IMG/VR virus record: IMGVR_UViG_3300033153_007754
Span: 62,001-126,000 of that record
DNA from: a virus
Direction: 5' to 3' (one strand)
Length of the DNA: 64,000 nucleotides
Part shown: piece by piece, positions 10,329 through 49,727 of the stretch
Numbering within the stretch: the stretch's first letter is position 1
Layout of the letters: each line of letters opens with the position of its first letter
Program-made: the position numbers and the translations under genes
Notes under the pieces: generated by a model
The model's database searches: none
What the model saw: the letters and a program-made list of their open reading frames with translations, nothing else
What the model was told of the DNA's origin: nothing

Positions 10329-10393
10329 TTGACAAACCCAAAAAAAACTGTATATTGTAGATAGATGGCAATTAAGCCATGATTCAATAGGAG
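10329..10393 (+). promoter_or_regulatory. Sigma70-like promoter with 5' dyad cassette (copy A)
   Basis: TTGACA at 10329-10334 and TATATT at 10351-10356 are separated by 16 bp. Eight bases further lies the perfect dyad ATGGCAATTAAGCCAT (10365-10380), followed by AGGAG at 10389-10393 and the ATG at 10400. The dyad falls at or just after the expected start site, so the mRNA would begin with a 5-bp hairpin with an AAUUAA loop. The same arrangement recurs at six other places in the window. Confidence 0.85.
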
Positions 10394-10399
10394 AATGAT

Positions 10400-11380
10400 A
10401 TGATTGAGAATACTATGTGGTGTCCAAATTGTAATGAGGGCGAGGAATTAAAGAACATTAGTGATGGAAATATAAAGTGTAGAACATGTGGGTACATAGG
10501 AAAGCCGAATTGTCTTACCAATCCGTCATCGACAGAATTGGTAACCAGTGAGGAAGATATTAACGAATTGGTAGATTGTGTTACGGATAAATCACATCAA
10601 ACAACTGGTATTGGCTTTTTTAGTGCAGGGTCTGTTGATATAATTAATTTAATAAATGAAAATGAAGGGTTATTGAAATATGATTCATATGGTTCATTTA
10701 TTTTTATTATTTGGAATGGGGAAAACACCCAAAAAGTAATAGATTTATTAAAAAAAGGCGATGTGTTTCATGCCTTTATTTTAAATCACAATCATTGGTC
10801 ATATTCACAGGAAGATACACTTAAAAGAATTTCAGGTCTAATTCAATATTGGAATAACCATACTTCATCCATTACCTATCATAAGGTAAAAAATCAACAA
10901 ATTGAATTAAATAAAAAACATGTAGAATGTATGGAAGGTATGGGAGTATATTCTACTAAAGATATTAATGATTTTATGCATCCAATATATTTACTAAACA
11001 GAATATATAAAAACAAAGAAATAACTAAAAGGGATATGGGTGAGTTAAAAAAACTTATCCCTGATAATGCTGAAGGGATTAAATTAATTGAAAATTTTAA
11101 ATCTGATGTGTGTAGAGATTTTTTTCACCATGGTCATTTAGGTTATGATGAATATTTAGATACACATCTACCCATTTACAATATGTTAATAAAAAATCTA
11201 CCAGAAAACATTAAAAAAATCATATCTGGAGGGACTGATTCTTATAGTTACTCATATGAAGAAGAATGGGGTAAAAGAATGAACCAAAATGTCCATAGAA
11301 TTGACACTGAATTTATGCTTAATCAATTAAAAGGTTTAAGGCAATATGCTAGACTATTAATAGATATAGAAAAAAACTAA
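10400..11380 (+). CDS. Zinc-ribbon protein of unknown function (326 aa)
   Basis: The first gene behind promoter copy A. The N-terminus has a zinc ribbon (CPNC near residues 8-11, CRTC near 27-30). The rest is alpha/beta with many His and aromatic residues. Residues around 66-77 (HQTTGIGFFSAG) and the C-terminal ~30 (TEFMLNQLKGLRQYARLL) reappear almost intact in the 50-residue gene at 12885-13037. The early-type promoter suggests a host-takeover or regulatory role; no family is recognised. Confidence 0.75.
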   Translation: MIENTMWCPNCNEGEELKNISDGNIKCRTCGYIGKPNCLTNPSSTELVTSEEDINELVDCVTDKSHQTTGIGFFSAGSVDIINLINENEGLLKYDSYGSFIFIIWNGENTQKVIDLLKKGDVFHAFILNHNHWSYSQEDTLKRISGLIQYWNNHTSSITYHKVKNQQIELNKKHVECMEGMGVYSTKDINDFMHPIYLLNRIYKNKEITKRDMGELKKLIPDNAEGIKLIENFKSDVCRDFFHHGHLGYDEYLDTHLPIYNMLIKNLPENIKKIISGGTDSYSYSYEEEWGKRMNQNVHRIDTEFMLNQLKGLRQYARLLIDIEKN

Positions 11381-11415
11381 ACAATCCCCAATTAAATAAA
11401 ATAAAATAAAAACGC

Positions 11416-11480
11416 TTGACGAATCCCGAAAAATCAGTATACTCTAAGTAGATGGTAATTAAGCCATAACCCAAGGGAGG
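11416..11480 (+). promoter_or_regulatory. Sigma70-like promoter with 5' dyad cassette (copy B)
   Basis: TTGACG at 11416-11421 and TATACT at 11438-11443 with a 16-bp spacer, then the dyad ATGGTAATTAAGCCAT at 11452-11467, then GGGAGG before the ATG at 11486. The inner pair of the stem is T/G, which can still pair as U-G in RNA. Confidence 0.85.
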
Positions 11481-11485
11481 ATACT

Positions 11486-12073
11486 ATGAAAGTCATTGAA
11501 TCAAATAACGCATATATGCAGAAAGCGGAATCAATAATTATAACTTTTATTCAACCTATGTTTCATAGGGATTATAAGAATTCTTTAATGTATAATATCA
11601 AAGAAGTGTTATCATACCTATCAAAAAGAAAAAACACACCATCATTAAGCCTACATTGGTTGAATATGTCTTTAGAAAATGGATTCACTCACATGGCATT
11701 AAATAAAAGAATAGAAAAAAAAACTATAAAAAAACTTAATAAAATTAGATTAAAAAAAATATCATTATCCGATAATGAATATAGGTTACTGGGTACACAC
11801 ATTGGTTTAAATGGTAGTAATTCAATTAACTCTTTGGTTGATGATAACTATTCTTATGTTGCACTAGAAGATTATAAGGATGGAACTAATTTTTCAAAAC
11901 ATAAAATAGCCGGTTTAATATCTTCATTAGAAGAAAAAGGTTTTATATATAATGAAGATATTGGTCAAAATACTTTATATGTATTAAATGTTGATTATTT
12001 ATTAGAATATATTTTAACTGAGGAAGAATGTAGTATGTCTTTTTGGGATTGGGAATTATTCAGAGTGAAATAA
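11486..12073 (+). CDS. Hypothetical protein with winged-helix-like C-terminus
   Basis: A 195-residue protein expressed from promoter copy B with a GGGAGG site. The C-terminal part (about residues 135-180: FSKHKIAGLISSLEEKGFIY and following strands) has the shape of a winged helix: a recognition-like helix, then a beta wing. The N-terminal half is helical and basic (IEKKTIKKLNKIRLKK). A DNA-binding early regulator is a plausible inference, not shown by a known signature. Confidence 0.6.
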   Translation: MKVIESNNAYMQKAESIIITFIQPMFHRDYKNSLMYNIKEVLSYLSKRKNTPSLSLHWLNMSLENGFTHMALNKRIEKKTIKKLNKIRLKKISLSDNEYRLLGTHIGLNGSNSINSLVDDNYSYVALEDYKDGTNFSKHKIAGLISSLEEKGFIYNEDIGQNTLYVLNVDYLLEYILTEEECSMSFWDWELFRVK

Positions 12074-12131
12074 AACATCAGACCTAAACAAGTCTTAAAA
12101 CTGTTTTTTTTTCATTAGGAGGGTTGTAATA

Positions 12132-12875: not shown

Positions 12876-12884
12876 GAGGATAGT

Positions 12885-13037
12885 ATGTGTGTTCAAAAAG
12901 AAAATGTAATGAACCAAACAACAGGGTTTGGTTTTTTTAGTGCTGGTGATATTGAACACATTAACACTAAATTCATGCTTAATCAATTAAGAGGTGTAAT
13001 TCAATGCCTTAGATTATTAACAGATATAGGAAAATAG
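12885..13037 (+). CDS. Mini-paralogue of the 326-aa zinc-ribbon protein
   Basis: A 50-residue ORF with TTAGGAGGATAGT before its ATG, 9 nt after the preceding gene. NQTTGFGFFSAGDIEHIN matches QTTGIGFFSAG of the 326-residue protein at 10400-11380. TKFMLNQLRGVIQCLRLLTDIGK matches that protein's C-terminus. It therefore looks like an internal-deletion derivative that keeps one internal segment and the C-terminal helix. A good ribosome site and intact frame argue that it is expressed. Confidence 0.65.
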   Translation: MCVQKENVMNQTTGFGFFSAGDIEHINTKFMLNQLRGVIQCLRLLTDIGK

Positions 13038-13058
13038 GAACACACTATTCTCTCAAAA

Positions 13059-14135: not shown

Positions 14136-14200
14136 GTTATTACCCATTCTTGAAAAGAATAATTATAGTTTTTTTTTGATATTTAAGGAATCTTTTTTTG

Positions 14201-14326: not shown

Positions 14327-14349
14327 TTTTACCTCCATATATTAACTTT

Positions 14350-15642: not shown

Positions 15643-15644
15643 GT

Positions 15645-17288: not shown

Positions 17289-17301
17289 ATTTTTTAAACT
17301 C

Positions 17302-18048: not shown

Positions 18049-18070
18049 AAATAACCCCTAAATATATAAT

Positions 18071-18371: not shown

Positions 18372-20275
18372 TAAAAGTACTCCCTAAAATTGTTTGTTTT
18401 TTTCAATTGCCATCCGGCCGCCCCTAATAAAATATTTAAACTAGATAGATAAAAAGCATCAAATTGTAAATCATAATCTATATCAGTTACAAAATATTTC
18501 ATCATTTCTAAATTTCTAAAAGTGATTGTATCACCTTTACCCGTAAATTGTTTATTTGCCTTTAAATACACGAAATAAGCATAATCACCATTTTCAATAA
18601 AAGATGTTGGGATATTGTGTTTTCTAATTAAATAATTACAATAAGCTGCGCCCCTAAGTATTGGAGTTGCTTTTGGTTGTATTACATAATCAGCTTTTTT
18701 TATTATCTTATTATCTTTAAATAATTTTCTATAAGTATTTATCTTATAAGCATTTTTTAATGCATTATGTGTACTATATTCTTTTATATATTTGTGATAT
18801 TTATTTACCTTTGTGTTTTGTGCAATTTGTGTTATATCCATAGTTTTAAATTCTTTTCTTATTTTTTCAACAAATCCCCTTAATTCATCAATTTTATTTC
18901 TAAATATTATATCAACACTATGTTCTAACCACTTTGTTATAACAACCGGGTACGAAACATTTTTTGTAGATAACCCCGTTGTTTTTAATTTGTATGGTGT
19001 AAAAAACTTACCTTCGTCATACAAAGTTTTCATTACGTATTTTTTCTTTTCAACGTGCAAAGCCGCTTCATTAATCTTTTCAATTTTCATTTTCATTTTA
19101 TATTCAAATTTATTAATATAGTCACTACTATTTTTAAATGTTGTATCAATTATTGGTTGTGCAACCTTTTCATTAAATACTAAAATATCATTAATTAGTT
19201 CCTTGTTGGTTGCATAGACTTTGTTTTTATATAGTGCCTGTATAAGTGGGTCAATATTTACGTAAACCGAATCTGTGTCTATATATATAGATGGTTCATA
19301 ATCTTTGTAATCTGGAAACATAATTTTAAAATTATCTGTTACGGATTTAGCAATAGATTTAATATAATATTGGCTTAAAGATGTTATTGCATTTGCAACA
19401 TCCAAATCATAATATTTGTAATAAGCATTCGCAAAAGCACCATAACCCTTGTTTAAATTCCGTTTAAATGCTAAATCTTTCGTTCTGTAAACCCTTTCTT
19501 GTTCACCCCAATATTTAATGTTCTTTTCGTCATTGTTTTCTTTAGCTTTATTTAATCCATCAATAGCATTACTTCTATGTGCTTTTGCAACTAAACGTTT
19601 ATCATATAAATAATTCATAGCCACACACATAACACTTTTCTTGTTTAGTTTAAAAAACATAAGATTTGGTGTTACTGATAAATTATACTTTTCTAAAAAA
19701 CCACCAAAATCTATTGTTCTTGTTACCATCAAATCTATTGTTGCGGCTAAAATATCTCTATAAAGTGGGTCACTCGATTTTCTATATAAAATGTTAAAAT
19801 ATGATTTTGGAAATTCAAAACTTAATAAATCATCTTTTCTATATTCATCTGTTTTAATTAATAAGTATTCCCCACCTCTTTTAACTGCAATTCTTTTACC
19901 TTCTTCAATTTTTTCTTTTTTTAATTTACCAGTTCCATCAAAAAAATGATGATAAAAAGTAGAACCCTTTCTGCTATACATAGACTTTGTCATTTTCTTT
20001 ATAGGAACGTGTCTACCTTTGCCAGTTTCAAACACATTGAATATCTCAACCTGTTTAAATAAATGTTCCCTAAAGTCAATTGGTAAATCAGCCAACATTA
20101 TTTTATTTTCCTTTCCAATATTAGCTGTCATAATAGCGGATGGATATTCCGAGTTAACATCAAAAGACATTGTAAAACCATACAATCCACGTTTAGTTAA
20201 ATAATTATAACCACCCAAATAAGGGTACTTTTCTGAATGTGCAACAAAACGCCCACTAACCAATTTTCTATTCAT
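18371..20275 (-). CDS. gp43B: DNA polymerase B, palm/fingers/thumb part (split gp43, C-terminal)
   Basis: A 634-residue protein holding the polymerase half of a family B enzyme. Motif A SFDVNSEYPS lies at about 37-46 (Glu replaces the usual Leu of SLYPS), motif B K..xN..YG at about 271-279, and motif C YIDTDS at about 331-336. It starts just before motif A, so the exonuclease domain is absent and encoded at 13059-14135. The C-terminal thumb region follows. The weak site GGTG precedes the ATG. It lies downstream of a DnaN-like clamp gene, which may serve this polymerase. Confidence 0.92.
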   Translation of the reverse strand: MNRKLVSGRFVAHSEKYPYLGGYNYLTKRGLYGFTMSFDVNSEYPSAIMTANIGKENKIMLADLPIDFREHLFKQVEIFNVFETGKGRHVPIKKMTKSMYSRKGSTFYHHFFDGTGKLKKEKIEEGKRIAVKRGGEYLLIKTDEYRKDDLLSFEFPKSYFNILYRKSSDPLYRDILAATIDLMVTRTIDFGGFLEKYNLSVTPNLMFFKLNKKSVMCVAMNYLYDKRLVAKAHRSNAIDGLNKAKENNDEKNIKYWGEQERVYRTKDLAFKRNLNKGYGAFANAYYKYYDLDVANAITSLSQYYIKSIAKSVTDNFKIMFPDYKDYEPSIYIDTDSVYVNIDPLIQALYKNKVYATNKELINDILVFNEKVAQPIIDTTFKNSSDYINKFEYKMKMKIEKINEAALHVEKKKYVMKTLYDEGKFFTPYKLKTTGLSTKNVSYPVVITKWLEHSVDIIFRNKIDELRGFVEKIRKEFKTMDITQIAQNTKVNKYHKYIKEYSTHNALKNAYKINTYRKLFKDNKIIKKADYVIQPKATPILRGAAYCNYLIRKHNIPTSFIENGDYAYFVYLKANKQFTGKGDTITFRNLEMMKYFVTDIDYDLQFDAFYLSSLNILLGAAGWQLKKTNNFREYF

Positions 20276-25875: not shown

Positions 25876-26151
25876 TTATAAAGAATATTTTTTTTTTATG
25901 TCATCCAAAGTTAGTGTACCATTTTTTTCTAATATCTTTATTATTATATGAAATGGTGTATATGTTGGTAAATCACAACCATCTTCAATCCTAAAACCAA
26001 TACCATCAGAGTCAAAAATATTAAAAGTAATTTCGCAATTAAGCATATTACCAATCATTTCCGCCATTTTTGAAGCGGCATCATATACTTTATTTTCATA
26101 TTTATTTATATTCTCATGCAATTTTTTAATTTTTTTTATATCATCTTTCAT
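25876..26151 (-). CDS. Hypothetical protein (91 aa) behind dyad promoter
   Basis: Expressed from promoter cassette copy C. The chosen ATG (MKDDIKKIKKLHENINKY) has GGGTG upstream; an in-frame GTG 18 bases earlier would overlap the dyad leader. The N-terminal half is a charged helix and the C-terminal half is mixed (FNIFDSDGIGFRIEDG). No family is recognised. It is likely an early accessory gene. Confidence 0.65.
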   Translation of the reverse strand: MKDDIKKIKKLHENINKYENKVYDAASKMAEMIGNMLNCEITFNIFDSDGIGFRIEDGCDLPTYTPFHIIIKILEKNGTLTLDDIKKKYSL

Positions 26152-26167
26152 ATCAACACCCAATAAC

Positions 26168-26223
26168 ACATGGCTTAATTACCATGTATTGATAGTATAC
26201 ATATGTTACAAATAAATTGTCAA
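26168..26223 (-). promoter_or_regulatory. Sigma70-like promoter with 5' dyad cassette (copy C)
   Basis: On the minus strand: TTGACA (26218-26223), an 18-bp spacer, TATACT (26194-26199), then the dyad ATGGTAATTAAGCCAT (26170-26185). The stem is extended by two more pairs (ACATGG...CCATGT, 26168-26187). It lies just upstream of the 91-aa gene. Confidence 0.8.
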
Positions 26224-39592: not shown

Positions 39593-39600
39593 ATCACCTC

Positions 39601-40137
39601 TCATTCTCTGGATAAAAAATAGGCATCAACGATATCTGAAATTCCATCTTTGCCATATTTAATATTATACTTATCTGCTAATGTTTTTATATATCCTTTA
39701 ACCAGTTTTTCAGGGATAGATTTAAACATATCCAACTTATCTGCATTACCATTTCCGGTGGCGTTTTTCTTTAATACTTTAATCCCAACAAGATTTATTT
39801 CTATACTGCTTTTACTAATCAAATATTTAATTGTACCAATTAATTCACCTATCTGATATAAACGCATAGATGCACGTGAAAAAGCATAGTTTTCTACGGA
39901 TATTCTTATTGGATTGTGTGATATTATAAAGTGTGATATAGTATCTATTCGTTCATTAGGTGTTATTTCACAATCAACAAATTCAACATTAAAATTACCA
40001 TCATCAGAATTATATTTTTTTAATTTTATCAACTTTTTTCTGGATGTTAATAATAATACATTTATAATACCATTATCAGTATTTTTTATATAAATACAAG
40101 ATTTTTTTAGTGCAAGGTCACAACCAACTTGAATCAT
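39601..40137 (-). CDS. RuvC-like Holliday junction resolvase
   Basis: A 178-residue RNase H-fold nuclease. The first strand carries Asp7 (VGCDLALKKSCIYI), Glu82 sits in ISVENYAFSRASMRLYQIGE, and the C-terminal helix has Asp168 and Asp171 (ISDIVDAYFLS). Length and spacing fit RuvC (about 170 aa). T4 uses endonuclease VII (gp49) for this job, so RuvC would be a replacement for resolving branched DNA before packaging. AGAGTT precedes the ATG. Confidence 0.8.
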   Translation of the reverse strand: MIQVGCDLALKKSCIYIKNTDNGIINVLLLTSRKKLIKLKKYNSDDGNFNVEFVDCEITPNERIDTISHFIISHNPIRISVENYAFSRASMRLYQIGELIGTIKYLISKSSIEINLVGIKVLKKNATGNGNADKLDMFKSIPEKLVKGYIKTLADKYNIKYGKDGISDIVDAYFLSRE

Positions 40138-40529
40138 TATTGCAACTCTAAAAAATTAGAAATATGGTTTTCATTTATACTTGGTACATTCCAGATAACA
40201 TTATAAATTAAAGTGAATTCACCTAGTGTTTGTGTAGAACCCAATATATTTATTTCAATTCGATTGATTTTATACACTCCATTTGGTAAATTGATAGATA
40301 AATCAATCTGATTTAAACCCTCGCTTCGTTTTGTCGGTATACCTGTTGTTATACCCCCCTTGTATGTTAAAACGCTTGCATCGTTCAATTTTGTGACTTC
40401 AATTTCTAAATAAAAATCATTATTATCAACATCAAATTCAGATAACAGTGCAGACTTATCAGGGAACATGAAATTCATATTGTTTCGGTATACATTAATT
40501 TGTGGTGAGTTTGCTAAATTTAAAGCCAT
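40137..40529 (-). CDS. Hypothetical late structural protein (130 aa)
   Basis: A beta-rich 130-residue protein with GGGGTTATTT before the ATG and an AATAAATA late element 35 nt upstream. Alternating strands (YLEIEVTKLNDASVLTYKGG, GEFTLIYNVIWNVP) suggest a beta-sandwich. A minor capsid or tail protein is the likely class; no family is recognised. Confidence 0.6.
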   Translation of the reverse strand: MALNLANSPQINVYRNNMNFMFPDKSALLSEFDVDNNDFYLEIEVTKLNDASVLTYKGGITTGIPTKRSEGLNQIDLSINLPNGVYKINRIEINILGSTQTLGEFTLIYNVIWNVPSINENHISNFLELQ

Positions 40530-40563
40530 AAATAACCCCTTAAAACATATAAATATTGTTACA

Positions 40564-40571
40564 TATTTATT
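40564..40571 (-). promoter_or_regulatory. Late-promoter-like AATAAATA
   Basis: AATAAATA on the minus strand, 35 nt before the start at 40529. Confidence 0.4.
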
Positions 40572-40609
40572 TTAAATAATAAAGTTATTTATTTTTTTAT
40601 GGTTTTCTC

Positions 40610-40849
40610 CTATAGGTTTGAAATTTTTGTGTCTATTTCTTTTAAAATATCTTCTGAATAACCTGAAAATGAAAAATAACAGTGTTGGAAATTACTAACA
40701 GTTGCATTAAAATCAGTGTCACCAATTATAATATTCCAAATTTTATTATTTTTCCAATTTTCTACATTCCCGAATATACCAACAAATATTTCATTATTTT
40801 TATTTTGGTTTTTCCTTTTTAATTTTTTCAATGCTTTTAATAAATCCAT
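40610..40849 (-). CDS. Hypothetical protein (79 aa)
   Basis: It starts after GAGGTGGTATT. The N-terminus is basic (LLKALKKLKRKNQNK), followed by strands FVGIFGNVENW, IIIGDTDFNATV and CYFSFSGYSEDI. It lies just after an intrinsic terminator, so it needs its own promoter, which I cannot identify. No family is recognised. Confidence 0.55.
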   Translation of the reverse strand: MDLLKALKKLKRKNQNKNNEIFVGIFGNVENWKNNKIWNIIIGDTDFNATVSNFQHCYFSFSGYSEDILKEIDTKISNL

Positions 40850-40860
40850 AATACCACCTC

Positions 40861-40888
40861 AAAAAAAGAAGCCCCTTAAATGGGGCTT
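40861..40888 (-). terminator. Intrinsic terminator after the 490-aa gene
   Basis: On the minus strand the stem AAGCCCC/GGGGCTT with loop ATTTAA is followed by CTTTTTTT. It ends the early transcription unit of the 490-residue gene. Confidence 0.85.
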
Positions 40889-40894
40889 TAAATG

Positions 40895-42367
40895 TTAACC
40901 ATTAATTATATAAGTTGTCCATACATTGTAGTCATCAAAACCACCTTTCTTCGATGTGCAATTTAGGTTCAACCAACTTTCAGGTGAACCAGATTCTTTT
41001 AAAAACCCTTCTAAATAACTATTATTTGTAAGTATCCCAGAATATGAATGTAGCTTTACTTTTATTTCTTCACCATTTTCATATTTTTCATAGTCTAATT
41101 GTAATTTATCACTTGCCATTTTTTCTTTTTGTTTTTCAGCAATCAAACCACATTTTTTATTTAGATAAGCAAATTGTTCAATATCTCTTATACCACCTAT
41201 TTTTTTGCCATCTAAAGTGGCTTTTTCAAACTGTATTGTATCCCATTGTATTTCACAATTATTTAAGTAAGATGATATTTTTTTATACTTAAGACCATCC
41301 GCCTTAACAGATACGCTTGTTTCAACTTTACCATCTAAAACAATGTATTGTATGTTTATAAAAAAGGTATGACCTTTTCTTTTAAGTTCAAATTCTTCTT
41401 GATGACTATAATCGTCAGTAGGATTTTCAATATCTTTTAAAAGTTCAATTTCTTCAAGTTCTTTTTGTTGTTTTACTTCTTCAATTTCTTCCAATCTTTT
41501 AATTTCTTTTTCTTTTTTAGCTTCTGCATTAACACTTTTAAATTTCTTAGATTCTTCTTCTGTTGTATCCAGAAAAAGAGTTTGTGAAAAATACATTGGG
41601 TCATCTTCTCCATAAGACATATCAACATTTTCACTTGCTAGTGCAATGTCTCTTTTATTTTGTCTTTTCCCACCACTCCAATAACATCTATTCATTAATT
41701 CTTCTGTTATTTCCATTCCATATTGACCTAGATATTCACCATGTTTTTTAATAAAATTATTCAATCTTTTTTCATTTTGTTTTTCAATTTTTTCATTTTC
41801 TACAATTTCATTTCTTTCTGCTTTTAATTCAGAAAGTTTTTTAATTTGTTCTTTTGTACCATTTTTTGAAACGAAATCAGCCTTTTGAGTTCTCCAAAAT
41901 TTATTAATATCAGTTTCAATAGCAGATAAATATTTATCTGCTATTTCTTCTTTTTTTGATGCAACAACATTTTTTAACTCTTCTAACATTTCAACATTTT
42001 CACCAGCAAATTCTTTACATTTCTTAATGCCATTACTATATAAGTAATCTGCATTTAAAACGTAATTTAAGGATTTATCAAAAGCTTTTCTATTTTTTTC
42101 ATCAATTTTTTCTTGTTTTTTAACTTCTTCTTCTTTTTTTGCATTTTCTAAATCACATTCTTCAATATGATAGGCAATTCTAACCTTGCCGTATCTACTT
42201 GAAGATACTTCAGTTTCACAATTTAAAGTATGAGTTTCCCCAACTTTAAAACTTTTCATGGTTTCTTTTTTTTCAAGTTTCCATTTAAGAGAATAACCCT
42301 TAAATTCTGTAGTGCAATGTATCCATTTTCTTCCCATCTTTTCTATCTTTAGTGTTAATTCAATCAT
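40895..42367 (-). CDS. Large early protein with central coiled coil (490 aa)
   Basis: Expressed alone between promoter cassette copy D and an intrinsic terminator, with GGAG before the ATG. The N-terminal ~70 residues are beta-rich (an OB- or Tudor-like set of strands). Residues about 80-330 are Glu/Lys-rich helices including a long run (KKEKEIKRLEEIEEVKQQKE). The C-terminal ~150 residues repeat the beta-rich style. No enzyme motif is visible. An early, host-interacting role is inferred from the promoter. Confidence 0.7.
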   Translation of the reverse strand: MIELTLKIEKMGRKWIHCTTEFKGYSLKWKLEKKETMKSFKVGETHTLNCETEVSSSRYGKVRIAYHIEECDLENAKKEEEVKKQEKIDEKNRKAFDKSLNYVLNADYLYSNGIKKCKEFAGENVEMLEELKNVVASKKEEIADKYLSAIETDINKFWRTQKADFVSKNGTKEQIKKLSELKAERNEIVENEKIEKQNEKRLNNFIKKHGEYLGQYGMEITEELMNRCYWSGGKRQNKRDIALASENVDMSYGEDDPMYFSQTLFLDTTEEESKKFKSVNAEAKKEKEIKRLEEIEEVKQQKELEEIELLKDIENPTDDYSHQEEFELKRKGHTFFINIQYIVLDGKVETSVSVKADGLKYKKISSYLNNCEIQWDTIQFEKATLDGKKIGGIRDIEQFAYLNKKCGLIAEKQKEKMASDKLQLDYEKYENGEEIKVKLHSYSGILTNNSYLEGFLKESGSPESWLNLNCTSKKGGFDDYNVWTTYIING

Positions 42368-42385
42368 GTGATTCTCCTACAAATC

Positions 42386-42437
42386 ATGGCTTAATTACCA
42401 TCTATTTACAGTATATTGATTTTTCGGGATTTGTCAA
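42386..42437 (-). promoter_or_regulatory. Sigma70-like promoter with 5' dyad cassette (copy D)
   Basis: Minus strand: TTGACA (42432-42437), 16-bp spacer, TATACT (42410-42415), eight bases, then the dyad ATGGTAATTAAGCCAT (42386-42401). An AGGAGA ribosome site and the 490-aa gene follow. Confidence 0.88.
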
Positions 42438-42459
42438 GGGTTTTGTTACTTTTTTTGTA

Positions 42460-42909
42460 TTATTTTTTAGAAATCTTATCTAACACAACTGAATGTACAT
42501 TTTCTCTTACTATTTTATAATTGTATTTAGTTTTAAATTCATCATTAAAAAAGATATAATTATGTACCACTACACCATGAACATAACCATATAATCTTAG
42601 GTGACTTGGTGGATTAAGTTCTTTTATCATTTCTTTCGCAATCTTTATATTTTCTTTTCTAACTTCTTCATAGTCTTTCAATTTACCAACTTTTTTTAAT
42701 ATTCTTTCAAATAAATTTTCTGCTGTATTTTTTTCCAATACTTTCCAGTACCAACTATTGTTGTTTATATACACTTCCCATTCATTTTCGTATTCTAAAT
42801 ATTCTACATACCCGTAATATTTTCCTAATTCATTATATAATAAATCATCAATATCTTTTTCTATTTGTTTGATTATGTTAATGTTTAATGTTCTTTTACC
42901 CTTAGTCAT
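42460..42909 (-). CDS. Early hypothetical protein (149 aa)
   Basis: It has GGGAGGATTAT before the ATG and promoter copy E upstream. Aromatic-rich strands (YYGYVEYLEYENEWEVYINN) are followed by helices and an HGVVVHNYIFF strand. The 3' end is duplicated as a remnant at 43000-43075. No family is recognised. Confidence 0.65.
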   Translation of the reverse strand: MTKGKRTLNINIIKQIEKDIDDLLYNELGKYYGYVEYLEYENEWEVYINNNSWYWKVLEKNTAENLFERILKKVGKLKDYEEVRKENIKIAKEMIKELNPPSHLRLYGYVHGVVVHNYIFFNDEFKTKYNYKIVRENVHSVVLDKISKK

Positions 42910-42925
42910 ATAATCCTCCCAGATT

Positions 42926-42977
42926 GTGGTTTAATTGCCACCTATATACAATATACTCATTTATTTAAATTTGTCAA
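42926..42977 (-). promoter_or_regulatory. Sigma70-like promoter with variant 5' dyad (copy E)
   Basis: Minus strand: TTGACA (42972-42977), 16-bp spacer, TATATT (42950-42955), then GTGGCAATTAAACCAC (42926-42941). The outer pair has changed from A-T to G-C on both arms together, which keeps the stem; the inner pair is lost. Confidence 0.85.
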
Positions 42978-42999
42978 GGCTTTTCTTACTTTTTTTTGA

Positions 43000-43075
43000 T
43001 TATTTTTTAGATATATTACCTAATACAACTGAATGTACATTTTCTCTTAGAATTTTATTATTATATTTACTTTTG
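43000..43075 (-). pseudogene. Remnant copy of the 3' end of the 149-aa gene
   Basis: The minus strand encodes KYNNKILRENVHSVVLGNIS then KK-stop, matching the C-terminus KYNYKIVRENVHSVVLDKIS of the gene at 42460-42909, including stop and the following bases up to the next promoter. No start or upstream part remains. It shows that gene-plus-promoter cassettes have duplicated and decayed here. Confidence 0.75.
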
Positions 43076-43090
43076 TGGATTTATGTTTTT

Positions 43091-43477
43091 TTATTTATAT
43101 TCTCTAAATTGAACATGCTTGAATAGTGGTCTCTTTTTCACAGTACCATCCGGTAAAATTTCTTCACTACTTTCTCGCCGTGTTGTAGCATACACCGCAA
43201 TAATACCATTTTTTTTACCAAAATTAACTAGGTTATATGTTACACCAAACTCACCAGATATGAACAATACATCTCCTTTGTTTAATTTTGAGATTTCCTT
43301 TTTGAATGAGTTAAGCATTTCAGAATCCAATTCCCCATCAGGTGGTACCTGTGAAAATCTCTTTTGTAAATCCTCACTAATAGTTTTAAATTTTTCAATA
43401 CCATATTTTAATGTGGCATCTTTTTTTTGATTCTCATTCATTGGGTGGCTTGTCATTTTTAACATTGTCTTATTCAT
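43091..43477 (-). CDS. Csx20-like protein, putative ring nuclease / anti-CRISPR
   Basis: A 128-residue protein starting MNKTMLKMTSHPM after AGGAGAATGAT; an in-frame ATG inside the dyad hairpin is rejected. The order of segments is an N-terminal 'SHPMNENQKKDA', then SEDLQKRFSQVPPDGEL, then GDVLFISGEFGVTYNLVNF, AVYATTRRESSEEI and FKHVQFREYK. This follows what I recall of Csx20-type CRISPR-associated proteins ('...lP.eLq..ws.vPP... KGDyvLvQGdFGatY.mVnfa...GlipVYATTkRe..E....dG....vFkHVrFR.Y'). Csx20 is linked to type III systems and is reported as a ring nuclease. In a phage it would be expected to remove cyclic oligoadenylate. The family match is from memory; the activity is inferred. Confidence 0.6.
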   Translation of the reverse strand: MNKTMLKMTSHPMNENQKKDATLKYGIEKFKTISEDLQKRFSQVPPDGELDSEMLNSFKKEISKLNKGDVLFISGEFGVTYNLVNFGKKNGIIAVYATTRRESSEEILPDGTVKKRPLFKHVQFREYK

Positions 43478-43496
43478 ATCATTCTCCTGTTGAATC

Positions 43497-43548
43497 ATGG
43501 CTTAATTGCCATCTATCTATAACATACGGATTTTTTTAGATTTGTCAA
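43497..43548 (-). promoter_or_regulatory. Sigma70-like promoter with 5' dyad cassette (copy F)
   Basis: Minus strand: TTGACA (43543-43548), 16-bp spacer, TATGTT (43521-43526), then the perfect dyad ATGGCAATTAAGCCAT (43497-43512) and AGGAGAATG before the Csx20-like gene. The leader sequence after the dyad is almost identical to copy A. Confidence 0.88.
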
Positions 43549-43649
43549 GGGCTTTCTTACTTTTTTTGAAATTTAATTTGGATAAAAAACAATAGTACTA
43601 CACATGCTACCCATATAATACAGGAAATTAAAGTGAAATTAAGTTTTAT

Positions 43650-44387
43650 TTATATCCCAACAATATTTGGTTTAATTGGTTCTTTTTCATTAACACTTAT
43701 ATTTGCACGTTCTAATTTAATTTGTTTTTCCACATCATTTTCTTCAACTTCAGATTCATTAATTGTGAAATACTCATTAAATACATCTAATCCAATATTG
43801 TTAATCATAGTTTTACAAGATTTACATTTTCCACAATGACTTAAGACATCATCATGAATTAAGGGGTTTTCACACGTAGATATCATTTTTTTTAATTTAT
43901 CGTCAATCATATTCCATATATGTGTTTTTTTTATTTTAATCAAAGGGAATTTCAAAACAGGTCTTCTTACATATGTATGTATAAATGGTTTATAAGCATT
44001 ATATAATCTCTTGATTTCGGGTAAATAACTAATTGCATCATCACCCATAACATAACCTAGATGTATTTCATCAATGCTACTAGAAAAAATACTACACCCC
44101 ATAATCCATAACACCGGTTGTATTAAAGTTGCACTATACAGGTCACCTACTTTAATATCTACTTTCATTTGTGCACGATTAAATTCAACCCGATTGCCAT
44201 ACCTTTCTTTGAAATAATTATAAATTATATCACGAGCCTTGTTTTCCATCTTGGTTTGTGTTATGTTATTCCCTATTTCAAATTTAATTAAATAAACATG
44301 GTTGTCTGTGCTTGCTTCTAAAGCTTTTTGAATTAAATAAGTAGAATCCAAACCACCTGAAAACGGTATTAAAATATCTTTTCTCAT
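43650..44387 (-). CDS. queC: QueC-like 7-cyano-7-deazaguanine synthase
   Basis: A 245-residue PP-loop ATPase with SGGLDSTY at 9-16 and a C-terminal zinc site STCENPLI..SHCGKCKSCKTM at about 170-192, as in QueC (CG.C..C). QueC makes preQ0 from CDG using ATP and ammonia. In phages, preQ0-derived bases are put into DNA to block restriction. No QueD/QueE/FolE or DpdA-like gene is seen in this window, so the substrate may come from the host or from genes elsewhere. GGAAGG precedes the ATG. The last ~35 residues are an unusual charged extension. Confidence 0.8.
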   Translation of the reverse strand: MRKDILIPFSGGLDSTYLIQKALEASTDNHVYLIKFEIGNNITQTKMENKARDIIYNYFKERYGNRVEFNRAQMKVDIKVGDLYSATLIQPVLWIMGCSIFSSSIDEIHLGYVMGDDAISYLPEIKRLYNAYKPFIHTYVRRPVLKFPLIKIKKTHIWNMIDDKLKKMISTCENPLIHDDVLSHCGKCKSCKTMINNIGLDVFNEYFTINESEVEENDVEKQIKLERANISVNEKEPIKPNIVGI

Positions 44388-45055
44388 TATTTACCTTCCT
44401 TTTTAAAAAAAATATTAACTAATTGGCTTATATTATTATAATCAATATTTTTCTTGGTTACTAATATATTATCAATAACTTCTTCCATATCTATTAAAAC
44501 GCCTTCTTTAGTATTATATATATCAAAATCAATGAAATTATCCCCATTATCATATTCTAACACCAAATCATTTTCATAAAGTGGCGAAATAAATGGAAAA
44601 TGTTCTAATTGATTAGCAATTTTATTAATTATAAGTAAAACATCTTTATGTATCAAATATGAATATTTTTCTTTTAAATCTTTCAATCTTTTTTCAATCT
44701 TTTCTTTCACGCTTGCTTTGTCAATCTTTTTATAAAAATCCTTAACTAATTGATTTATATTATTATAATCAACTTTTTTTTCTTTTATTAATACATAATC
44801 AACCACTTCTTCCATATCTATTAAAACACCTTTTTCAGTATTATATATATGAAATTCAATATAATCATAATTCCAATAATATTCCAATATTACACCACGT
44901 TCAACACCACGTTCAATTAGTGGATTAACAAAAGGTGGTCGTTCTAATTTACTAGAAATATTATTAATTACAAGCAATACATCTTCATGTATTAGATATA
45001 AACGTTTTTCTTTTAAATCTTTCAATTTTTTTTCAATCTTTTCTTTCACATTCAT
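44387..45055 (-). CDS. Hypothetical protein with two tandem ~110-aa repeats
   Basis: A 222-residue protein made of two copies of one domain: VKEKIEKKLKDLKEKRLYLI and VKEKIEKRLKDLKEKYSYLI start the two halves, and GVLIDMEEVVDYVL and GVLIDMEEVIDNIL end them. Each half is helix - strands (ILEYYW..DYIEFHIYNT) - helix. A dimer-like fold within one chain is likely. No family is recognised. GGAGGG precedes the start. Confidence 0.7.
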   Translation of the reverse strand: MNVKEKIEKKLKDLKEKRLYLIHEDVLLVINNISSKLERPPFVNPLIERGVERGVILEYYWNYDYIEFHIYNTEKGVLIDMEEVVDYVLIKEKKVDYNNINQLVKDFYKKIDKASVKEKIEKRLKDLKEKYSYLIHKDVLLIINKIANQLEHFPFISPLYENDLVLEYDNGDNFIDFDIYNTKEGVLIDMEEVIDNILVTKKNIDYNNISQLVNIFFKKEGK

Positions 45056-45206
45056 TTATTTTACCCTCCAATTCAATTTTTTTACATTTATTTTTATATT
45101 CACAATTAAAACAACCTATTTTATTACAAGTACATTTTTCAAGTAAACATAGTTGTTTTTTAAGTATATCAATCTTTTTTTTCTTCAAAAACAACTCATT
45201 TTCCAT
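45033..45206 (-). CDS. Cys-rich small protein (57 aa)
   Basis: The start MENELFLKKKK has AGGTG upstream. The sequence is Lys-rich with a Cys cluster CTCNKIGCFNCEYKNKC that could bind zinc. It overlaps the tandem-repeat gene by 23 nt and the upstream gene by 11 nt. The function is unknown. Confidence 0.55.
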   Translation of the reverse strand: MENELFLKKKKIDILKKQLCLLEKCTCNKIGCFNCEYKNKCKKIELEGKINECERKD

Positions 45207-45627
45207 TATGCACACCTATAGAAAATAACCCACGTTCTTTTTTAAATGGACTACTAAATAACGTTCTAATACTAATATAATCAGCGGAATTATCAAACCA
45301 TTCTTCATCAATGCATATACTAATTAAATGTATGGGATATATTTCTTTTTTTTCTTTATTACATCTATCTAATATGATTTTATCAACTTCATTCACAAAC
45401 TTTTTGATGAAATCATTTGAATATAAATATTCTTTAAGATTTATAGTAAAACCATTCAAATATAAATGCGAAAAAAGCCTTAATAAATCGTGTTTTACTT
45501 CCTTATCTTCAATTCCATATTCACTTATCACTCTATATACGTATCTTATACTAATATTCTCTACAAATTCATATAGCTTTCTTATAGCCTTGTTATTATG
45601 TTCTGATGTTACAAAATATTCATCCAT
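45196..45627 (-). CDS. Hypothetical helical protein (143 aa)
   Basis: The start MDEYFVTSEHNN is preceded by GTGGGTAAAC. It is mostly helical, with YEFVENISIRYVYRVISEYG and IHLISICIDEEWFDN. It is the first gene of a compact four-gene cluster ending with QueC. No family is recognised. Confidence 0.6.
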   Translation of the reverse strand: MDEYFVTSEHNNKAIRKLYEFVENISIRYVYRVISEYGIEDKEVKHDLLRLFSHLYLNGFTINLKEYLYSNDFIKKFVNEVDKIILDRCNKEKKEIYPIHLISICIDEEWFDNSADYISIRTLFSSPFKKERGLFSIGVHNGK

Positions 45628-45694
45628 GTTTACCCACAAAAAATTAACTATGTGTATAATATCATAAGACTTAAATTTAAGGAATTAAATTGAT

Positions 45695-46471
45695 TTATTT
45701 AGTTTTTCTGAATGACTTTTTAATATCAAAACCAGCTTTTTTTATTTTAGTGTTATTACAGACTTCTGGTATGTTTTTTTCATTAAATCTTGCCGTATAC
45801 ATCAATATTTCCTGATATGCTTCAGTGTGTTCAACTGGTGCATTTATAAATTTTAATGGTATATTTTCTGATACACTCCAAATGGATTCTTCTGGTTTAA
45901 CGTAGTTTGGTTTAACAGGAAAATACGCCCATGAAACATTGCCGTTTTCACCTATTGGAAAAGCATTAAATATAATATTCAAAGAATAAACTTTATTTTT
46001 CATACAATATTCATCAAACACTTTTTTATTTAATATTTTATTAATATTTTTAAAATATTTTTGGTTTTGTCTTGCTTCATATTTATATAAATCATCAATA
46101 TCATAAAAAAATGGACTCACACCCCTACGTTCTTTACGTAATGTCATATAATGATAATAAAGATTTTTAAATCTATCATTTATCTCATAAAAGAATTCGT
46201 TTTTTGGGATTTCCGCACCATCTTTCTCAAAAACTATATAAGGATAGAATTTTCCACAAAAAAACAACACACCCGTTAATAACCCAATATTATCATAATA
46301 TTGCATTTTAGGGATGGCATCCCTATCTGATATAAAAGTGTCAAGTTCTTTTTCTTTCATATCTGTTACATTATTAAAAACCCGTCTTATATTAGTTTCC
46401 TGATAATCATATGCATAAAACATATAATCATAGAAATCATTGTAATTAGAATGTAATACTTTATTTTTCAT
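45695..46471 (-). CDS. Hypothetical protein (258 aa)
   Basis: The start follows GAAGGAAAAT. It is soluble, with YDNIGLLTGVLFFCGKFYPY in the first half and IFNAFPIGENGNVSWAYFPV in the second, both beta-like. It contains many Tyr/Phe. Its position downstream of a sigma70-like promoter at 46954-46982, with a membrane peptide and a 129-aa gene between, suggests early expression. No family is recognised. Confidence 0.65.
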   Translation of the reverse strand: MKNKVLHSNYNDFYDYMFYAYDYQETNIRRVFNNVTDMKEKELDTFISDRDAIPKMQYYDNIGLLTGVLFFCGKFYPYIVFEKDGAEIPKNEFFYEINDRFKNLYYHYMTLRKERRGVSPFFYDIDDLYKYEARQNQKYFKNINKILNKKVFDEYCMKNKVYSLNIIFNAFPIGENGNVSWAYFPVKPNYVKPEESIWSVSENIPLKFINAPVEHTEAYQEILMYTARFNEKNIPEVCNNTKIKKAGFDIKKSFRKTK

Positions 46472-46544
46472 ATTTTCCTTCTACTATTTTTTTGAGTTTA
46501 ACCCAGAGATAAAGGGCTATAAGGGATAGTACTATATTAATCAT
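46461..46544 (-). CDS. Candidate 27-aa membrane peptide
   Basis: A short frame starting inside the stop region of the 129-aa gene (ATG overlaps its last codons) and ending inside the start of the 258-aa gene. The product MINIVLSLIALYLWVKLKK plus a charged tail is a single membrane helix. Overlap at both ends suggests translational coupling. No separate ribosome site is seen, so it is tentative. Confidence 0.4.
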   Translation of the reverse strand: MINIVLSLIALYLWVKLKKIVEGKYEK

Positions 46545-46926
46545 TTCTAACAAGAAAAAATTGTGACTTCTCATCAATATAATTTTTACCCACATAACAC
46601 CTTTTTTTGGTTTTTCTGTCTATAATACCTGTAACCAAACTACCATTATTAAATATAATTTTATCACCTATTTTTAAATTTTTATAATCAGGCAATTTAT
46701 CTAAATTATCTGGTAAAATAATTGTGTTATGTTGCCCTGAATGGAATAAAAATCTTTTATTGTTATCTAAAGTAGAATACACCACTATCAAACATTTTTT
46801 TTGAGATGGTGAAACCCCTACTTTACATATAGATAAACCTTTTCCACGGTTATATGTGCCTGTCCCATTTTGTGTTATAATAACCTTTGTGTCAACTTTT
46901 GCTGTCATAATATCAATGTTTTTCAT
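46537..46926 (-). CDS. Hypothetical protein (129 aa)
   Basis: It is driven by a consensus sigma70-like promoter, with GGGAGTGAAGT before the ATG. Strand-rich, with IITQNGTGTYNRGKG, CLIVVYSTLDNNKRF and a basic segment TGIIDRKTKKRCYVG. It could be a small KOW/SH3-like fold. No family is recognised. Confidence 0.6.
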   Translation of the reverse strand: MKNIDIMTAKVDTKVIITQNGTGTYNRGKGLSICKVGVSPSQKKCLIVVYSTLDNNKRFLFHSGQHNTIILPDNLDKLPDYKNLKIGDKIIFNNGSLVTGIIDRKTKKRCYVGKNYIDEKSQFFLVRND

Positions 46927-46953
46927 ACTTCACTCCCTTAAAAACATATAAAC

Positions 46954-46982
46954 AGTATATAAGACAATTTCCAATATGTCAA
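46954..46982 (-). promoter_or_regulatory. Sigma70-like promoter without dyad
   Basis: TTGACA (46977-46982) and TATACT (46954-46959) on the minus strand with a 17-bp spacer, 27 nt before the start at 46926. It is one of the best consensus promoters here but lacks the dyad. Confidence 0.8.
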
Positions 46983-46986
46983 GTTA

Positions 46987-47196
46987 TTAATAAGTTTTCC
47001 CATAAATAAAACGACCAAACACCTTTAAGAAAATACCCACTACCATATCAAATAAAAATAAACCGATATAAAGCACAACAAAGGCAATTATAATTGCAAA
47101 AGTTCCAGCCCAACCTAATTGTGAAGCACCTACAATTTTAAGTACAATCATAAATATTTGTATTAAAAATAATAATTCAATCAATTTTTCCTCCAT
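46987..47196 (-). CDS. Two-helix membrane protein (69 aa)
   Basis: MEEKLIELLFLIQIFMIVLK forms the first helix, and a second spans about residues 29-60 (FAIIIAFVVLYIGLFLFDMVVGIFL). The N-terminus resembles the small phage 'transmembrane Fragile-X-F' proteins. The start lies inside the 3' end of the DUF5662 gene, implying coupling. The function is unknown. Confidence 0.6.
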   Translation of the reverse strand: MEEKLIELLFLIQIFMIVLKIVGASQLGWAGTFAIIIAFVVLYIGLFLFDMVVGIFLKVFGRFIYGKTY

Positions 47197-47738
47197 ATTT
47201 CGTTAATTAACATATAAATAGTATTTTCTTGTTGTGTAGTAAAAGAAGCTTTAGTATTAATAAATCTTTCAGCCCAAATACATGGTGACTTATTAAATTC
47301 TTGTGATAGTGCACACCAATCACAAACCATTTCTGCCATTGATGGGTAATCCATTGTTGTTGCATCCACAATATTACCAGAACCCAATTCACCAATATTA
47401 AAATTTTTATCCCAAAACAGTGGATTATGTTTGTTGGTTGTCATATGATGGAATCTAGCTTGTTTGAATTCTTCCTTTATTTTATCATTAACAACATAAT
47501 CCACTGTTTCATTTAATCTTTTTGATTCATGCAAATCTGTTAATAAAATATAAGGTTCAAGCTCAATTTTAGAAAACTTACTTCCATCATGTTTTTTAAT
47601 TTCTTTAAATTCATCAGGTGTTATTAACCCTAAGTCAACCATTTTTTTAGCAAAATGTACAACTAATGCAATGTGTATAGCTGTACGTTTTACGAAATAT
47701 TCCATCATTTCACGTGTTGTATGCTTACTACATTCCAT
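47181..47738 (-). CDS. DUF5662-family protein
   Basis: A 185-residue protein; the ATG is taken over an adjacent GTG because of the spacing to GAGG. It contains the family's ordered motifs: HDGSKFSKIELEPY ('HD.SKl...E...y'), then ARFHHMTTNKHNPLFW ('H...n.HHpehy'), then ATTMDYPSMAEMVCDW ('Mdl.dl.EM.cDW.A'). The His/Asp pattern suggests an HD-like metal site. The family is widespread in phages and its activity is not known to me. Confidence 0.8.
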   Translation of the reverse strand: MECSKHTTREMMEYFVKRTAIHIALVVHFAKKMVDLGLITPDEFKEIKKHDGSKFSKIELEPYILLTDLHESKRLNETVDYVVNDKIKEEFKQARFHHMTTNKHNPLFWDKNFNIGELGSGNIVDATTMDYPSMAEMVCDWCALSQEFNKSPCIWAERFINTKASFTTQQENTIYMLINEIWRKN

Positions 47739-48193
47739 CACACCACCTCATTTAATATTTCAAGTATCTTTTCTTCATTATTAAAATCAAATAAATTCGG
47801 ATTAACATAAAAATTATTAGTAAAACAATTAATGTATTTACCACACTTTAATATTTCACCATCAAAACTTTTTAGTCTTAACTTATCTTCATGTTTTACA
47901 AGCATAAATTTTGTCTTAAATACTTGTTGTCTTAATTTATTTAATTCATTTACCATTTTTTTTGTTAATTTATCAGGTTTTACAGCACTATATACATCTA
48001 ATAAGGTTAGTTTTTTTACGCTTAATATATTATCTTTATCAATAAATATTTTATCACCATCTTCAACATCAATACGTTTGGCTTCTTGTATTAATTTTAT
48101 TTTTTTTCCATTTATTTTAACACCTTTTTCTGTCAATACTTTATTTATAGCATCACCATAAACACATGTTAAATAACCATATAAATTAATCAC
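47738..48193 (-). CDS. Hypothetical protein (151 aa)
   Basis: A GTG start is favoured by a GGAG eight bases upstream (another in-frame GTG three codons earlier overlaps that site). N-terminal half: GVKINGKKIKLIQEAKRIDV and GDKIFIDKDNILSV look like an S4-like or small beta domain. The C-terminal half is mixed. The stop overlaps the DUF5662 start (TGATG). No family is assigned. Confidence 0.55.
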   Translation of the reverse strand: MINLYGYLTCVYGDAINKVLTEKGVKINGKKIKLIQEAKRIDVEDGDKIFIDKDNILSVKKLTLLDVYSAVKPDKLTKKMVNELNKLRQQVFKTKFMLVKHEDKLRLKSFDGEILKCGKYINCFTNNFYVNPNLFDFNNEEKILEILNEVV

Positions 48194-48479
48194 AGTATTC
48201 ACTCCTTTCTTTTGCCATTTTATAAATTTGTTTGATAACTAAAACATTCAATAAATCTATATAGAAATCTGTAAAATTGACAACCTCTTTCACGCTATAA
48301 TCACTTGTCTCATCAAATTTACTTAAATCATTAAAAAACTCTTTGAATTCATCCAAAAGCGTTTCAGAATCAAGCTTGTTTGTAAAATACCCATCAACAC
48401 CACACCCAAGCAGTAGGTTAAACCTTTTTTTTGTATCTTCTATGATTTTTACAAATAACACATATTCCAAATCTTCCAT
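48186..48479 (-). CDS. Hypothetical acidic helical protein (97 aa)
   Basis: It starts after GGGGAAATT. Acidic and helical, with FNLLLGCGVDGYFTNKLDSE and a C-terminal helix. It lies downstream of the RNA ligase gene and overlaps the next gene by 8 nt. No family is recognised. Confidence 0.6.
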   Translation of the reverse strand: MEDLEYVLFVKIIEDTKKRFNLLLGCGVDGYFTNKLDSETLLDEFKEFFNDLSKFDETSDYSVKEVVNFTDFYIDLLNVLVIKQIYKMAKERSEYCD

Positions 48480-48553
48480 AATTTCCCCATTATAAAAAAG
48501 GATTGAAAAAATTCAATCAGGTTATTATAAGTTTTTTGTGATATTTAATAAAT

Positions 48554-49666
48554 TTATTTTTTTAGAATGGTTTTGATTTCTAGTGCTATCTTTGCGTTAC
48601 TATGTTTTTGTATATCTTTTATATCAATTTCGTTCCCATCAGCATCAATAACCAAATCACAATTAATTTCATATTTACCATCCAACTCACTAATAAAATC
48701 TTTTGTTGCATCAGAATGTATAATTGTGATAAATTTAGATATTTCCTGATGTGATTTTACACCACCTTCTCTTGATATAATAGAGTTAATTCTGTGTGTT
48801 GTGATATAAGCAGAATAAATAGGGATTAAAGGATTATTGAATTTCACTTTTTTATTACTATTCTTTTTATTAACACCACTTTTATCATTAAATTTAATAG
48901 ATTTCTTTTTAATATAATAAGTGTTTGCACCATTGAATTTTAAATCATATGGCTTAATTACAATACCTTCTATCATATCACTACCATAAAGGCTTTTTGC
49001 GTTCTCAACATCAAATTCAAGGGCTTCTTTTAATGTTTTAACACCATAATCTTTAATATAATATTCAGATAATCCCAATTCATTAAATAATTCTTTAGTT
49101 TTTTTAGGACTTATTAATTCACCATCCAAAAATAAATCATAAAATACTATTTGTTTATGTTTTGAATATCTAATTTCTTTCTGTATACCATCACCAAACA
49201 TTTCACATTCTAATACAATATGTTTGTGTTTATTTTTATAAAAATCTGCAATAGTGTTTATAACATTTTGATAGTCTTTCACTACATTTTTATGTTCAAA
49301 AAAGTTAATGTTTTCACTTAAATACATAGTTCTTTTACCATAATCAACCACCATTTCTTGACCATCAAAAAATATTGATATTGCAAAATGTGTTCCATGA
49401 ATTTTAGATGTTAAAATCCATTCTTGATTGTTATTAGTATTTATTAAAAGTTTATCTAATTTAGTGTTATAATGATTACCAATTGAGCTGTATTTTCTAA
49501 ATGGAATTAATGTCAATTCACCATTTATTTTTTTATGGATAATACCACTCAATAGAATTCCACAATTAGAACATTTTTTATTGGTAATTTTTCTTTTAAA
49601 TTCATTTAAATCACCAATATTTACAATTTTACTTTCACCACAACTACAATTAATTACATAATTCAT
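48554..49666 (-). CDS. RNA ligase 2 (Rnl2-like) with N-terminal zinc ribbon
   Basis: A 370-residue nucleotidyltransferase. Motif I SKIHGTHFAI (Lys88 adenylated), motif III FYDLFLDGE, motif IV MIEGIVIKP, motif V YIKKKSIKF: these fit T4 Rnl2-type ligases, which seal nicks in RNA duplexes. Before the core lies a ~40-residue zinc ribbon (CSC, then KKCSNCG at C32/C35), which T4 Rnl2 does not have. It is expressed from the dyad promoter copy G with CAGGAGG before the ATG, so it is likely an early RNA-repair enzyme. Confidence 0.88.
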   Translation of the reverse strand: MNYVINCSCGESKIVNIGDLNEFKRKITNKKCSNCGILLSGIIHKKINGELTLIPFRKYSSIGNHYNTKLDKLLINTNNNQEWILTSKIHGTHFAISIFFDGQEMVVDYGKRTMYLSENINFFEHKNVVKDYQNVINTIADFYKNKHKHIVLECEMFGDGIQKEIRYSKHKQIVFYDLFLDGELISPKKTKELFNELGLSEYYIKDYGVKTLKEALEFDVENAKSLYGSDMIEGIVIKPYDLKFNGANTYYIKKKSIKFNDKSGVNKKNSNKKVKFNNPLIPIYSAYITTHRINSIISREGGVKSHQEISKFITIIHSDATKDFISELDGKYEINCDLVIDADGNEIDIKDIQKHSNAKIALEIKTILKK

Positions 49667-49678
49667 AAAAACCTCCTG

Positions 49679-49727
49679 ATGGGATAATTCCCATTATAAT
49701 AATATTTTATTATGTATTTTTTGTCAA
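49679..49727 (-). promoter_or_regulatory. Sigma70-like promoter with covaried 5' dyad (copy G)
   Basis: Minus strand: TTGACA (49722-49727), 17-bp spacer, TATTAT (49699-49704), then ATGGGAATTATCCCAT (49679-49694). Compared with ATGGCAATTAAGCCAT, the inner stem pair is swapped C-G to G-C on both arms, while the AATTA loop core is kept. CAGGAGG and the Rnl2-like gene follow. Confidence 0.75.

Follow-up and report, generated by a model that had tools for sequence, protein, structure and literature searches.

We identified a promoter cassette that is repeated at 17 sites of a phage genome, in which the -10 box is followed at close range by a small dyad with a nearly fixed AATTAA centre, and then by a Shine-Dalgarno (SD) sequence and a start codon. 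The reading that we tentatively favour is that of a repeated early-gene cassette, whose transcripts would start with a 5'-terminal hairpin guarding the early mRNAs, perhaps in concert with a protein that reads the loop.

A repeated promoter-dyad cassette

The stretch of DNA analysed here (the window, 64,000 nt) corresponds to positions 62001-126000 of the 153,500-base viral record IMGVR_UViG_3300033153_007754, a very AT-rich genome (26.8% GC). The genome carries a 114-bp direct terminal repeat (positions 1-114 and 153387-153500) and its ends are bridged by a sister contig (L032), so that the map is probably circular and complete. T4-type major capsid, tail sheath, portal and terminase genes are present, and by these genes the phage belongs among the T4-like phages, with a capsid protein that is only ~25% identical to the capsids of cultured phages. 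The sister contigs in IMG/VR are 99.95-100% identical to the genome and, therefore, represent the same phage. Searches with the capsid, portal and RNR proteins recovered no diverged relative, only the same phage or T4-like contigs of ~23-33% identity. Residues 180-430 of the ribonucleotide reductase large subunit (926 aa, window 26790-29570, minus strand) gave an intein-splicing match that stayed below threshold.

A preliminary description of the window had reported seven early promoters with a dyad just after the -10 box, and a promoter and dyad were confirmed at all seven. Its coordinates gave the start of the -35 box for plus-strand sites and the lower-numbered end of the dyad for minus-strand sites; whole cassettes are given below in window coordinates, with exceptions to the consensus boxes noted per site. 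Scores are those of a covariance model built from the -10 box, the discriminator and the hairpin.

10329..10402, plus strand: TTGACA (10329-10334), 16-bp spacer, TATATT (10351-10356), dyad ATGGCAATTAAGCCAT (10365-10380), SD, ATG at 10400; ORF of 326 aa, no known family; 47.7 bits, E 6.7e-7
11416..11488, plus strand: TTGACG, 16-bp spacer, TATACT, dyad ATGGTAATTAAGCCAT (11452-11467), SD, ATG at 11486; ORF of 195 aa, no known family; 48.3 bits, E 5e-7
26149..26223, minus strand: TTGACA, 18-bp spacer, TATACT, dyad ATGGTAATTAAGCCAT (26170-26185, stem extendable to 9 pairs), weak SD, ATG at 26151; ORF of 91 aa, no known family; 41.8 bits, E 1.1e-5
42365..42437, minus strand: TTGACA, 16-bp spacer, TATACT, dyad ATGGTAATTAAGCCAT (42386-42401), SD, ATG at 42367; ORF of 490 aa, no known family; 50.1 bits, E 2.1e-7
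42907..42977, minus strand: TTGACA, 16-bp spacer, TATATT, dyad GTGGCAATTAAACCAC (42926-42941, with G-C in place of the outer A-T), SD, ATG at 42909; ORF of 149 aa, no known family; 44.5 bits, E 2.9e-6
43475..43548, minus strand: TTGACA, 16-bp spacer, TATGTT, dyad ATGGCAATTAAGCCAT (43497-43512), SD, ATG at 43477 of the Csx20 gene; 44.6 bits, E 2.8e-6
49664..49727, minus strand, doubtful outlier: TTGACA, 17-bp spacer, TATTAT, 4 bp, ATGGGAATTATCCCAT (49679-49694; loop AATTAT, 5-bp stem, downstream of the promoter), SD, ATG at 49666 of the RNA ligase gene; only 15.4 bits, E 2.4

As had been claimed, the -35 box is TTGACA (at six of the seven sites, with TTGACG at 11416), the spacer is 16-18 bp throughout, and a TATAMT-like -10 box is present at every site, in the divergent forms TATGTT at 43548 and TATTAT at 49727. 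The gap between the -10 box and the dyad is 8 bp, or 4 bp at 49727; at 26223 an extended stem could also begin 4 bp after the box. An SD sequence, weak (GGGTG) at 26223, and an ATG follow the dyad at all seven sites, and five of the seven 16-mers are exactly ATGGYAATTAAGCCAT. The window contains nine motif matches with up to three mismatches against 2.4 expected, a number reached in none of 100 shuffles; at this threshold, the motif by itself does not make the dyads at 42926 and 49679 significant, and they rely on their promoter context. One further copy with a single mismatch (48949-48964), lying inside the RNA ligase gene with no promoter, looks like a chance occurrence.

A motif scan of the full genome gave 14 matches with up to two mismatches, compared to none for a reversed-pattern control. 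The covariance model returned 17 members genome-wide (E 2e-7 to 8.5e-4), with the next match only at E 0.46; as the members are the model's own training set, the informative part of this result is the gap beneath them. Six of the seven originally reported sites are members. Those beyond the window lie at genome positions 6081, 9152, 17807, 18464, 28821, 29602, 152167 and 152877 on the plus strand, and 4217, 59424 and 132835 on the minus strand. Three looser variants are also found behind good promoters: window 49679 (E 2.4), genome 16630/16659 (E 3.6) and genome 499/521 (E 1.3). The earlier proposal that the promoters form a set, therefore, holds for a larger group than was claimed (17 sites), in which 49679 is only a doubtful outlier. 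Strong promoters lacking the hairpin are also present (for example genome 48052, 66991, 86815, 95671, 108982 and 136620), and in most of these the AAATCCnAAAAA spacer is also missing. The assignment of the genes to an 'early' class is deduced from promoter type.

The 14 closest members share one order: an A-rich tract, C-TTGACA, an AAATCC-A-rich spacer of 16-18, TATAMT, the 8-nt discriminator NTARNYAG, the dyad, a few nucleotides, the SD sequence and the start codon. Among them, the consensus base is held at 95% in the -35 box, 90% in the -10 box, ~93% in the dyad and ~80% in the spacer and discriminator, and falls to 56% in the eight columns past the dyad. The contrast between the dyad and the sequence just after it indicates that the dyad was kept by selection, and not by recent copying alone.

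Conservation of this kind bears on whether the dyad has any function, or was simply kept through the recent copying of mobile, recombinogenic promoter cassettes. The similarity of the spacer and discriminator, one 76-bp pair of copies with 91% identity, and an unrelated phage backbone (L021/L029/L030) in which such a cassette is followed by a break precisely at the start codon, with the next gene swapped, are all compatible with hitch-hiking. We nevertheless consider it improbable, given that the sequence past the dyad has diverged while the dyad has not, that pairing is preserved through changes on both sides, and that genome 9152 retains the loop and promoter with an unrelated stem.

RNA hairpin or DNA operator

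The loop is AATTAA in 15 of the 17 sequences, with AATCAA and AATTAT once each, and the stem arms vary around it (ATGGY/GCCAT, GTGG/CCAC, AGTGAT/GTCACT, ATGGGT/ACCTAT and GTGGTTGT/GCAATTAT). Stem energies are modest, from -1.6 to -5.5 kcal/mol, and three members (genome 4253, 29566 and 152840) have degraded stems. Standard pairs account for 92.9% of stem cells over the 17 sequences, against 84.0% when the 3' letters are shuffled (reached in 0 of 500 shuffles), although the copies are related by descent, so that independent covariation events are few and the shuffle test overstates the case. Changes on both sides are seen in four of the five stem pairs, and sliding the partner by 1-3 columns lowers the pairing to 18-62%. 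Hairpins with an AATTAA loop lie behind a strong promoter in 11 of 23 cases genome-wide, compared to 108 of 8092 for all 6-nt loops, and the orientation of the cassette hairpin relative to transcription is constant.

The fixed loop, the changing but paired stems, the G-U closing pairs and the constant orientation together favour an RNA hairpin over a symmetric DNA operator, a choice on which the preliminary description had taken no side. An operator would be bound as double-stranded DNA at about +3 to +18 by a dimeric phage repressor or activator, turning the early set off (or on), and the position of the dyad over the start region would be ideal for a repressor. The half-sites are mostly ATGGY on both sides, and a symmetric DNA site would also show part of the paired variation; they are altered at 18464, 9152 and 152167, with T and C unequal between the arms. 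The best-conserved part of the element, however, is the asymmetric centre, in a single orientation throughout, and the half-sites shift jointly to new sequences (GTGA/TCAC, GTGGTTGT/GCAATTAT) with the loop unchanged. The commonest closing pair, T.G, is a wobble pair in RNA yet a half-site mismatch that spoils the symmetry in DNA, and the promoters showed no second half-site nearby. Elsewhere, the L021/L029/L030 loci repeat the dyad half-site TAGGCA upstream of the -35 box, beside a divergent small gene, making a DNA operator plausible there, and a locus of similar sequence (L063) is a clear operator. Common descent of the cassette copies leaves few independent changes, so that the operator reading is weakened only in part, and we regard it as a serious although unlikely explanation.

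Returning to the RNA hairpin, we took the usual seventh base after the -10 box as +1, by which most members would begin 5'-AG|AUGG... or 5'-G|AUGGG...; the earlier suggestion that transcripts start at the hairpin is consistent with this spacing. The position of the -10 box thus predicts an mRNA 5' end with one or two unpaired bases before the stem in nearly all members, and we infer that the hairpin begins at about nucleotide 2-3 of the message. For comparison, 50 kb of T4 gave 13 promoter matches, some of which may not be real promoters, and at none of them did a hairpin of -2 kcal/mol or better begin within +1 to +5.

These features suggest how the cassette (A-tract, TTGACA, AAATCCnAAAAA spacer, TATAMT, NTARNYAG, hairpin, SD, start codon) may work. 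Host sigma-70 RNA polymerase would be expected to initiate at the A (or G) one or two bases upstream of the stem, and the mRNA, if folded in the cell as predicted, would open with a 5-6-bp hairpin bearing a 6-nt loop. RppH and RNase E require a single-stranded 5' end to act, and mRNAs are stabilised by hairpins added at that end (PMC3997798). With only one or two unpaired 5' nucleotides, pyrophosphohydrolase and 5'-end-dependent RNases would engage poorly, giving longer-lived early mRNAs, and the ribosome site directly downstream of the hairpin would stay open.

The counterpoint is that a pure stabiliser has no need for a fixed loop. The near-invariant AAUUAA suggests an RNA-binding protein, of phage or host, that might also read the loop and place the set under common control. 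In a stronger form of this idea, which we think rather improbable, the AAUUAA hairpin would be the site of an RNA-binding regulator that switches ~17 host-takeover and counter-defence genes together post-transcriptionally, and the occurrence of the same loop at +1 of promoters in unrelated phages (L015, L018, the L021 group and L113) would reflect a wider signal.

The near-invariant loop would also suit a translational or antitermination signal, in which a phage protein on the nascent hairpin blocks ribosomes or modifies RNA polymerase (as do gp43/RegA, or lambda N at boxB). The hairpin ends ~18-23 nt upstream of the start codon, close enough to be reached by an initiating ribosome, and there is precedent in the 16-nt phage RNA operators with conserved loops of T4 and RB69 gp43 (PMC3014915). 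No binding protein for the hairpin was identified, no boxA-like element or further structure was present, and a terminator pattern calling for antitermination was not established; we judge such a signal to be fairly unlikely. A second hairpin with the SD sequence in its loop was attractive by eye, and was rejected as no better than shuffles (mean fraction 0.42). No T-run follows the dyads, and the four terminator-like sites of window 40000-50500 are all located away from them.

Genes behind the cassettes

The gene at window 43091-43477 (minus strand, 128 aa), previously called Csx20-like, was confirmed as Csx20 by NCBIfam NF040559 (E 4.3e-38, above cut-off) and by the PADLOC Csx20 model (E 6.6e-38). 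Csx20 is an active cA4 ring nuclease family found in only 4 of 28,114 phage genomes (PMC12409355), and the phage protein is probably a cA4 ring nuclease directed against type III CRISPR; a search of cultured phage records gave no match at E 1e-5. The further claim of an Rnl2-like ligase (48554-49666) stands as regards likeness, with a score of 96 bits that falls under the family cut-off of 197, and its promoter is the weakest member of the set.

MORN-repeat proteins are also among the cassette-driven genes. Repeated MORN-type (PF07661) genes are greatly expanded outside the window, at genome ~2,600-25,500 and 137,000-139,300 (L009, L010 and L013), with dense repeats of 70-90% identity; several of these genes lie behind hairpin cassettes. 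One member protein of 541 aa matches DUF4942, with a weak DNA methyltransferase match, and many member ORFs have no family. This gene content looks like accessory, host-takeover or counter-defence functions.

If the favoured reading is true, a T4-like phage embeds post-transcriptional control or mRNA stability in its early promoters as one reusable part, and an acquired gene, such as the Csx20 ring nuclease or the MORN-repeat proteins, would gain the same expression by landing behind a cassette. The cassette represents a compact part of ~75 bp with 17 presumably co-controlled genes, most of them without known function, and has a bearing on the tuning and ending of early expression in T4-type phages, a matter only partly worked out even for T4.

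Related loci and known systems

The promoter and loop pattern was found in 19 stretches of viral contigs, comprising five from this phage and ~7 distinct others, compared to four for the reverse-complement loop. Under looser promoter rules, a -35 box and SD sequence accompanied 4 of 34 distinct AATTAA matches and 0 of 56 for a permuted loop, an uneven comparison in that the former came from viral and genome contigs and the latter from viral contigs only. A few unrelated environmental phages (L015, L018/L024, L021/L029/L030 and L113) combine a promoter and an SD sequence with an AATTAW-loop hairpin close to +1, and L015 and L018 also share the discriminator NTAGACAG. E-values of these outside loci are biased, as the loci were retrieved with the same motif. 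The spread of the cassette to other phages is suggestive and, because the enrichment over control loops is small, should be taken as a lead and not a result.

In the L021/L029/L030 group, three contigs with backbones of ~97% identity carry an identical promoter-hairpin-SD cassette and part from one another right at the start codon behind it, the early gene that follows being different in each. A module at which early genes dock would be expected to leave such a pattern. L063, from a Ktedonobacterales MAG, matched the model well and was dropped as a DNA operator with repeated half-sites. Four loci from Ruminococcus and Clostridia MAGs (L050, L057, L076 and L078) have a near-identical promoter, TATAGTTAGTTACAGAGGTAATTAACCC, followed by an inverted GTTAGTT copy; this resembles a repeated operator or the promoter of a mobile element, and seems unrelated to the cassette.

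Rfam 15 gave no matches in the window at gathering scores, and none at E<=1 around three neighbouring cassettes. Cultured phages and plasmids held no match of note for the 30-base -10/hairpin consensus, and a literature search found no paper describing the promoter-hairpin arrangement.

Promoter-early stem-loop (PeSL) cassettes of T4-type phages, reportedly described by Arbiol in 2010 and Comeau in 2014, are said to combine a strong sigma-70 early promoter with a stem-loop, in many copies between non-essential genes, and possibly to act as a docking module for gene exchange. Their stem-loops have reportedly been described as transcription terminators. Our cassette shares with PeSLs the strong sigma-70-like early promoter, the many intergenic copies (17 sites) and the T4-type phage. 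Unlike in PeSLs, the stem-loop lies 8 nt past the -10 box, lacks a T-run and leads into an SD sequence, so that by its predicted lack of a terminator the cassette is not a PeSL. Gene exchange at the start codon, a possible PeSL trait, was seen only in the unrelated L021/L029/L030 group.

The leader hairpins of Escherichia coli ompA and papA and of T4 gene 32 resemble the cassette in having a small hairpin at the 5' end with the ribosome site just downstream, and the cassette is predicted likewise to leave few unpaired 5' nucleotides. In contrast to these stabilisers, a single hairpin with a near-fixed AAUUAA loop is here fused to a promoter at 17 genes, and its stabilising role is putative. 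The gene 32 leader has a CUUCGG-type hairpin, with a UUCG-type loop closed by C-G, whereas the loop here is AAUUAA. The gp43 operators of T4 and RB69 and lambda boxB, likewise phage RNA hairpins of small size (~16-18 nt), lie near the mRNA start and have conserved bases in the loop; the cassette differs in its loop, in serving many genes, in being fused to a promoter and in having no known binding protein. The view that this element is not known from described phages is, therefore, true of its sequence and not of its kind, since both 5'-terminal stabilising hairpins and T4-type early-promoter cassettes are familiar. The element is best read as a new sequence of known kinds: a putative early-promoter cassette with a conserved-loop hairpin, best likened to a 5'-terminal hairpin that stabilises the mRNA or binds a regulator.
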